From Planctomycetia bacterium (lineage in GTDB: Bacteria; Planctomycetota; UBA8108; SXIK01): DNA of 64,000 nucleotides. Position numbers and translations under genes: made by a program. The stretch lies in contig SXIK01000010.1 of the NCBI GenBank assembly GCA_005772855.1, positions 1 through 64,000 of the forward strand, read 5' to 3'. Every line of letters starts with the position of its first letter. Position 1 is the stretch's first letter. This document shows positions 26,369 through 28,355 of this stretch, piece by piece. The notes below the pieces were generated by a model that saw only the letters and a list, made by a program, of their open reading frames with translations, did no database searches and had not been told where the DNA came from.

Positions 26369-27388
26369 ATGGACCCCCTCCCTCTCGTCGAGAAGATTCT
26401 TCAGTTCATCGAACCTTACGAGTTTCAAACATTCGTATTGGGGTTCGATCGACCCAAGGGCTATGACCGCGCCCAACACGAGGACTCCTTTCGCAAGTTA
26501 AAACAGGCTCTCGGAGAAGAGATCTCGCGTCGAACACCCGGCGTGGACGCCGATTTCCTCCGCCCTGATCTCAGGATTGACATCGATTCCAATCTCTCCC
26601 TGCGTCTTCAGGTAGCGCCGATATTCCTCGCGGGGCGGTATCGAAAGCTCTCCCGCAACATCCCATCGACCCGCTGGATTCACCACGCATGCAATGGCCA
26701 CGGCTGCCCAACTTGCTCTCATACGGGAAATTTGTGCGGCCCTAGCGTGCAAGAACTTCTCTCAACACCCGCTCTCAAGGCCTCGCTCGGCCAGCGGACC
26801 CTGTTCCACTCACTGGGCAGGGAAGACGTCGATGCTCGGATGCTCGGCTTGGGGCGGCCCTTCGTTCTCGAGATACATCACCCGGTCCGCCGCAAGCTCG
26901 ACCTTGATCGGATACGGCAGGATTTTCACCAGCTCGCAGATGGTCTCGCCGAGATCTCAACGCTTTACCTCACGGGGCCGGAAGCCCGTTCGGAAGTGAA
27001 GGCAACGGAGGCAGAGAAGACCTATCGTGCATGGCTCGACTTCGGAGGCACTGTCCATTCACCCAAGCTCGAGCAGATCAGAGCGCTGTGCGGAATTACA
27101 GTGGAGCAGCTGACTCCGTCACGGGTGCAGCACCGCAGAGGCAGAAACACCCTGCGCAAGCGCAAGGTCCTGGAGTCGATTTGGCTCGGCAAAGTCGACG
27201 GGCGCAACGCCTGGGAAGTACGAGTAGAAGCCGGGATGTACGTCAAGGAGCTTGTGAGCGGTGATGAAGGGCGCACCCGACCTTCGCTCGCAGAGATCCT
27301 CGGCTGCCCGTGCCGGTGCGAGGCCCTGGATGTGCTCGAAGTACACTGGAATCCCCCGTGGGAGCAGGTAGAGCGGCCCGCACGGTAG
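26369..27388 (+). CDS. Pus10-type tRNA pseudouridine synthase (archaeal/eukaryotic family)
   Basis: The protein has 339 residues. Every landmark of Pus10 is present in order: the RNA-binding part ending in FLAGRYRKLSRNIPSTRW, a Cys motif HACNGHGCPTC followed by TGN and SVQELL, the catalytic loop LGREDVDARMLGLGRPFVLEI with the presumed nucleophile Asp153, then EKTYRAWL, LTPSRVQHRRG and the closing EAGMYVKELVSGDEGRTRPS...LGCPCRCEALDVLEV. Pus10 makes pseudouridine 54/55 in the tRNA T-loop of archaea and some eukaryotes; bacteria normally use the unrelated TruB. The N-terminal C-x-x-C part of archaeal Pus10 appears missing. It is followed 31 bases later by a START-like gene on the same strand. 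Confidence 0.85.
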   Translation: MDPLPLVEKILQFIEPYEFQTFVLGFDRPKGYDRAQHEDSFRKLKQALGEEISRRTPGVDADFLRPDLRIDIDSNLSLRLQVAPIFLAGRYRKLSRNIPSTRWIHHACNGHGCPTCSHTGNLCGPSVQELLSTPALKASLGQRTLFHSLGREDVDARMLGLGRPFVLEIHHPVRRKLDLDRIRQDFHQLADGLAEISTLYLTGPEARSEVKATEAEKTYRAWLDFGGTVHSPKLEQIRALCGITVEQLTPSRVQHRRGRNTLRKRKVLESIWLGKVDGRNAWEVRVEAGMYVKELVSGDEGRTRPSLAEILGCPCRCEALDVLEVHWNPPWEQVERPAR

Positions 27389-27419: not shown

Positions 27420-28355
27420 ATGGCTAAAATCGTCCAACTCTCGAGGTTCCCATCGCCCCCACCGGAGGCTCCCTGGTGGGTCGTGCGCAGGGAGATGGTC
27501 CCGGCGAGCCCGGAGCGAGTATGGAATGCCCTGACCAACCCCGGGGAGTTGGTCCACTGGTGGTGCGACTTCGCGGAGGTGCGCCTCGAGAAGGGAGGAC
27601 GATACGCCTTCGGCGGCCGCCATGTTTACGGGGATTCGATGGAAGCGCAGACGATCGAGACATCGGTGAAACCAGGGGAAGACTTCGAGATTGTGGATTT
27701 CGAGCCAGCAGCACGACTCGTGTTTCGTTGGCCGCTCCTTGGCGTTGACACTTTGGTGCAATACGAGCTCGAAAACGAGCTTGAGTCGACCCGGTTCACT
27801 GTCACGCAAACTGCCAAGGTGCCCCCGGGCTTGAACCCCGGCTTGGGCCCGAACTGGTGGTGGGTGGCCCTCCCGTCGCTTCGATCTTTCATCGAGAAAG
27901 GTGAGTCCGACTTGCGTATCGACTACCATGGGCTTCGATCGGCGGCGGCGATATCCCTTGAAGCGAGGTGTTCCACTTTTCCCTGGATCATCTGGCACAA
28001 GCTGACAAGCCCGACCGAAATTCGCCGCTGGTGGGCGCCCGTCATCCAGCTCGAGCCCAGGGCCGGCGGAACGTTTCGGCTCGAATTGGACGCCATGGGC
28101 CCGAGTCGCGTGCTCGAGACTTCCGAGCTCTCCCGATTCGTGCACGACTGGGTCTGGCCAGGCGGCGCCGTCGGGCAGATCGAGTGGAGTCTCGAGGAGA
28201 CCGAGACTTGCGTCCTCTTACGCGTGACGGATCTTGGCCCATGGGACCCCGCAGTATCGCGCGACGCCTGCGCGACTCTCTGGGGCGCAACCCTGCTTCA
28301 GCTGAAGCAGTTGAGCGAGCGAGGCGTAACTCCGCGGGAGTATCAAGACGGCTAA
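27420..28355 (+). CDS. Tandem SRPBCC (AHSA1-like) domain protein
   Basis: The protein has 311 residues with two copies of a START-like hydrophobic-pocket domain. Domain 1 (about 20-155) has MVPASPERVWNALTNPGELV followed by WW and later AARLVFRW. Domain 2 (about 180-305) has WIIWHKLTSPTEIRRWWAPV followed by GGTFRLEL. Each shows the 'P-x-x-V/I-W-x-x-L-T-x-P-x-x-x-x-x-W-W' signature of activator-of-Hsp90-like SRPBCC proteins. These bind small hydrophobic ligands; the ligand is unknown. It probably shares a transcript with the Pus10-like gene. Confidence 0.82.
   Translation: MAKIVQLSRFPSPPPEAPWWVVRREMVPASPERVWNALTNPGELVHWWCDFAEVRLEKGGRYAFGGRHVYGDSMEAQTIETSVKPGEDFEIVDFEPAARLVFRWPLLGVDTLVQYELENELESTRFTVTQTAKVPPGLNPGLGPNWWWVALPSLRSFIEKGESDLRIDYHGLRSAAAISLEARCSTFPWIIWHKLTSPTEIRRWWAPVIQLEPRAGGTFRLELDAMGPSRVLETSELSRFVHDWVWPGGAVGQIEWSLEETETCVLLRVTDLGPWDPAVSRDACATLWGATLLQLKQLSERGVTPREYQDG

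Follow-up and report, generated by a model that had tools for sequence, protein, structure and literature searches.

Pus10-family pseudouridine synthases in TruB-less Planctomycetota and Bipolaricaulota

A 64,000-nucleotide stretch of planctomycete DNA (the window, by which we mean the whole of the stretch analyzed) encodes a genuine Pus10-family pseudouridine synthase. We consider it highly likely that this planctomycete Pus10 has taken the role of TruB, which the genome lacks, and forms Ψ55 in the T-loop of tRNA. Few tRNA modifications are more conserved than Ψ55, which is generally assigned to TruB in bacteria and to Pus10 in archaea. Contrary to reviews of 2021 and 2023, according to which bacteria have no Pus10 (PMC7912444, PMC9957541), Pus10 without TruB is present in many Planctomycetota relatives of the source organism and in most sampled Bipolaricaulota. 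Within the open-access papers searched, we found none reporting a bacterial Pus10, and automatic annotation may already name the proteins.

The family assignment of the window protein is unambiguous. Its gene runs from an ATG to a stop over 339 codons. The N-terminus is well defined, since an in-frame stop lies 7 codons upstream of the ATG and there is no alternative start codon in between. All motifs on which the original prediction was based (AGRYRKLSRNIPSTRW, HGCPTC followed by TGN, GREDVDARML, EKTYRAWL, HRRG and EAGMYVKELVSGDEGRTRPS) are present. The protein scores 287 bits (1.6e-85) against the Pus10 equivalog TIGR01213 of NCBIfam (cut-off 200 bits) and 188 bits (2.4e-55) against Pus10_C (PF21238; cut-off 27), and it matches human PUS10 (2v9k) by sequence with an E-value of 1.5e-26. 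Hmmscan gave no match to TruB_N (PF01509), TIGR00431, the Cbf5 equivalog, DKCLD or PUA domains, and in the profile search Cbf5 shared only a short common core with the protein. Membership in another pseudouridine-synthase family, the outcome that would have spoken against the original prediction, was thus not found.

Structure prediction agrees with this assignment. An AlphaFold model, computed with 37 aligned relatives from bacteria and archaea, reached a pLDDT of 94.3 and a pTM of 0.89. Its top fold match in the PDB was human PUS10 (E-value 4.9e-28, TM 0.81), and the runner-up families, TruA and Cbf5/TruB, followed at 5e-9 or weaker (about 1e-6 to 1e-7 for TruB). Residues R151, D153, D155, K217, Y219, K293, E294 and R302 are invariant in 37/37 relatives and have counterparts in human PUS10. 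D153 occupies the position of human D344, which we take to be the catalytic residue. In the C-terminal motif, G289, Y291, G298 and P305 are likewise invariant in the 37 relatives, as are the three cysteines C108, C113 and C116, which are missing from human PUS10. The helices and strands of residues 1-84 are well predicted, and the whole-length fold match takes in this region, for which the PF22023 score stays below the cut-off (Table 1).

Table 1. Features of the pus10 locus, in window coordinates.
Feature	Position	Strand	Basis or remark
pus10, predicted tRNA pseudouridine(55) synthase, 339 aa	26369..27388	+	TIGR01213, PF21238, human PUS10 fold match
N-terminal THUMP-like region, residues 1-84	26369..26620	+	PF22023 14.7 bits, below cut-off 28
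Cysteine cluster C108, C113, C116 (CNGHGCPTC)	26690..26716	+	Likely metal-binding loop, judged from sequence
Catalytic motif GREDVD, residues 150-155	26816..26833	+	Aligns with human PUS10 GREDVD
Predicted catalytic aspartate D153, first Asp of GREDVD	26825-26827	+	Invariant in 37 relatives
KTY, with active-site Lys K217 and Tyr Y219	27017..27025	+	Unchanged in all 37 relatives and in human PUS10
EAGMYVKELVSGDEGRTRPS, residues 287-306, conserved C-terminal catalytic motif	27227..27286	+	Invariant positions
AHSA1/START-like gene directly downstream	27420-28355		Matched in two stretches, probably a tandem pair of domains

Pus10 and TruB are almost mutually exclusive in Planctomycetota. Whether the same genome also has truB had been raised with the original prediction; the source genome gave no PF01509 match, and 14 of 14 control genomes, archaea included, did. 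We then counted Pus10 (above the profile cut-off) and TruB (by a TruB_N match) in 294 genomes of the phylum. Pus10 was found in 43 and TruB in 147, both in a single genome, and neither in about 105, a number that includes some incomplete genomes. TruB is accordingly missing from 42 of the 43 Pus10 genomes. For the exclusion, Fisher's test gives p 4e-13 when genomes are counted and 5e-7 when families are, both optimistic given relatedness. Among 29 genomes of the window's class, 7 have Pus10, 20 have TruB, none has both and 2 have neither. Even one family (f3) is split, with Pus10 in genus g212 and TruB in the five genomes of genus g3. The exclusion holds for the phylum, the class, the order and the family alike, as functional replacement of TruB by Pus10 predicts. 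The gap is specific to TruB, since 40 of the 43 genomes with Pus10 retain TruA and RbfA was found in all 30 genomes tested. An assembly gap as the cause of TruB absence is rejected, given that the exclusion extends over class and phylum and that TruA is retained.

Pus10 has not generally taken over a truB slot beside rbfA or ribF. The source genome has an intact nusA-infB-rbfA block, on a 76.7 kb contig, with no truB adjoining, and in a TruB-containing genome of the same order truB is likewise away from rbfA. Among the Bipolaricaulota regions read, ribF was near Pus10 in only two. Pus10 and rbfA share a contig at a distance of 17-51 kb in several Planctomycetota families (G155:C1, G003:C150, G109:C7, G074:C66, G207:C10).

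The sole genome with both enzymes (G035; TruB L128 on G035:C664, TIGR00431 218 bits; Pus10 L004 on G035:C597) is a fragmented bin of 1010 contigs, which is either mixed or in a transitional state. Genomes with neither enzyme include nearly complete ones (for example, G007 at 97% and G049 at 99%). In such Planctomycetota, Ψ55 may be lost or dispensable, or may be the product of another enzyme. Separately, four Planctomycetota proteins resemble Cbf5, the archaeal and eukaryotic H/ACA pseudouridine synthase (L124:59-1120, L125:113-1258, L127:64-1092 and L129:476-1474, in G282, G284, G033 and G006). They exceed the NCBIfam Cbf5 cut-off (255-311 bits versus 242) and have TruB_N, TruB_C_2 and PUA-like domains, with a DKCLD-like start in three. 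A bacterial Cbf5, if true, would add another archaeal-type enzyme to Planctomycetota.

The window protein differs from its known relatives mainly at the N-terminus. With archaeal Pus10 (TIGR01213, COG1258; tRNA Ψ54/55 synthase) it shares the catalytic domain, the active-site residues, the mid-protein cysteine cluster and a putative THUMP-like region, at 35-41% identity among the matches listed. However, it lacks the CxxCxGR cysteine segment that precedes the THUMP-like region in archaeal Pus10, and its host is a bacterium without TruB. Of 77 archaeal sequences, 74 have the CxxCxGR motif, as do all 17 from Bipolaricaulota, but none of 43 from Planctomycetota does. In view of its absence, we class the window protein as Pus10, but not as the archaeal subtype. 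Human PUS10 aligns with it throughout the catalytic domain, but its N-terminal domain is larger and the mid-protein cysteine cluster is missing; humans have TRUB1 as well (PMC7912444). Bacterial TruB (TIGR00431) makes the product predicted for the window protein, Ψ55, but belongs to a different pseudouridine-synthase family. Planctomycete Pus10 itself comes in two forms, a long one of about 340 aa, to which the window protein belongs, and a short one of about 270 aa without the whole N-terminal domain (THUMP region). Short forms were seen in L018, L021, L022, L024-L029, L111-L114 and L116-L123.

Judged from its sequence, the window Pus10 is predicted to have Ψ55 synthase activity. It would bind the tRNA T-arm and isomerize U55, using D153 as the catalytic aspartate, and would act mainly on U55 rather than U54. 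TrmY, the archaeal m1Ψ54 methyltransferase, was detected in none of 48 Planctomycetota tested. Archaeal Pus10 is a Ψ55 synthase by experiment (PMC7912444), and in M. jannaschii Pus10 mutants the N-terminal cysteines and the thumb loop were reported to be important for Ψ54 formation (PMC9957541). As the window protein has no N-terminal cysteine segment of the kind linked to Ψ54, and its genome no TrmY, a preference for U55 over U54 is suggested for Planctomycetota, on the basis of one review statement on the M. jannaschii mutants (PMC9957541) and of TrmY absence.

It is less probable, though to be taken seriously, that a true bacterial Pus10 acts on U54 as well as U55, or mainly on U54, like the M. 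jannaschii enzyme. Archaeal Pus10 can show region specificity, covering U54 and U55 (PMC7912444). TrmFO is absent from most Planctomycetota, including the source genome, and nothing else need act on U54 there. Yet the Ψ54-linked cysteines and TrmY are both lacking, and four genomes with short-form Pus10 (G074, G207, G229, G249) do have TrmFO, so that U54 is probably m5U in these. TrmFO was also considered as a U54 partner of Pus10 and rejected, since it is rare in Planctomycetota whichever Ψ55 enzyme is present.

We regard it as improbable that the Pus10 fold was kept while the target moved to another RNA (rRNA or mRNA), with Ψ55 simply missing. Roughly one in three of the Planctomycetota sampled lacks both enzymes, so loss of Ψ55 may be tolerated, and the short form has dropped a whole domain. 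However, the exclusion of Pus10 and TruB, even inside one family, is a prediction of functional replacement, and the catalytic residues are identical to those of archaeal Ψ55 synthases.

The host is bacterial, as the original prediction had supposed. The source genome belongs to Planctomycetota and comprises 5.03 Mb (96% complete), and Pus10 recurs across the phylum, for example on a 69,580-base contig of G064, which belongs to the same order. The pus10 gene has a GC content of 0.597 (versus 0.609 for the window), and its neighbors encode an aldose epimerase, an AHSA1 (START-like) protein, an MFS transporter, a DUF2582 protein and an rRNA methyltransferase-like protein. Contamination by archaeal DNA, already thought unlikely in the original prediction, and a chimeric contig are both very nearly excluded: the assembly does consist of 244 contigs with 2% estimated contamination, but the neighbors are bacterial and the GC content matches, the same Pus10 lineage occurs with different flanks in related genomes of the class, and long contigs carry Pus10 together with the bacterial gene rbfA (17 kb apart on one 6.9 Mb contig in G155, and along with trmY on one 1.7 Mb contig in G299, from Bipolaricaulota).

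The window Pus10 is a member of a deep planctomycete lineage, and not a recent archaeal import. In the careful tree, it groups with the Pus10 proteins of its own class (100/98), and this group is nested in a wider assemblage of long planctomycete forms (95/96), one micrarchaeote included. The short forms make up a separate clade (100/100), and the Bipolaricaulota sequences, with the exception of L093, form a clade (100/98) nested in euryarchaeal sequences. The AU test rejects a single clade of all bacterial Pus10 (p 0.014), but not one of all planctomycete Pus10 (p 0.32). Tree and AU tests together indicate that Pus10 probably entered bacteria at least twice, and that the window copy is old in its phylum. 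Of the two origins offered in the original prediction, the trees favor the little-noticed bacterial branch for the window gene; transfer from an archaeon fits the Bipolaricaulota. Both trees place the micrarchaeote sequence (L076) among the long planctomycete forms, which may reflect transfer or a long-branch effect.

Bipolaricaulota are a second phylum in which Pus10 occurs without TruB. Two Bipolaricaulota/Acetothermia proteins (L049, L093) were among the matches listed in the contig profile scan, and their genomes gave no TruB match. Among 80 genomes of the phylum, Pus10 exceeded the cut-off in 64 and PF01509 was matched in none, while four archaeal controls did match it. The sampled Bipolaricaulota are bacteria, as RbfA is present in 6 of 6 tested and absent from four archaeal controls. 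TruA (PF01416) was also not detected in 12 of 12 genomes (G294, G295, G299-G304, G306, G312, G317, G318), against matches in 12 of 14 controls. Like the window protein, Bipolaricaulota Pus10 (L049, L093, L135-L149) is a bacterial Pus10 in TruB-less genomes; unlike it, it has the full-length archaeal architecture with N-terminal cysteines, is nested in euryarchaeal sequences and is accompanied by TrmY.

TrmY was found in 20 of 21 Bipolaricaulota tested. Full-length Pus10 and TrmY without TruB were seen in L150-L153 and in G294, G299-G304, G306-G312, G314 and G316-G320. A bacterial COG1901 paralogue of unknown function exists (PMC5041015), and the identification of TrmY therefore rests on the equivalog score, which was 237 bits for the two proteins tested (cut-off 183). 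The combination of Pus10 and TrmY predicts Ψ55 and m1Ψ54 in Bipolaricaulota tRNA. To our knowledge, the m1Ψ54-Ψ55 T-loop mark has so far been described from archaea.

Together, the above observations moderately favor two bacterial uses of the enzyme. In much of Planctomycetota, a stripped-down Pus10, which has no N-terminal cysteines and in some families no THUMP region either, would be the sole Ψ55 synthase; in Bipolaricaulota, Pus10 and TrmY would together produce m1Ψ54-Ψ55. As natural truncations, the planctomycete forms provide a test of which Pus10 parts are required for Ψ54 and Ψ55, and the family with either enzyme by genus opens the replacement to study among close relatives. Bipolaricaulota, for their part, are predicted to have an archaeal-type T-loop with m1Ψ54.
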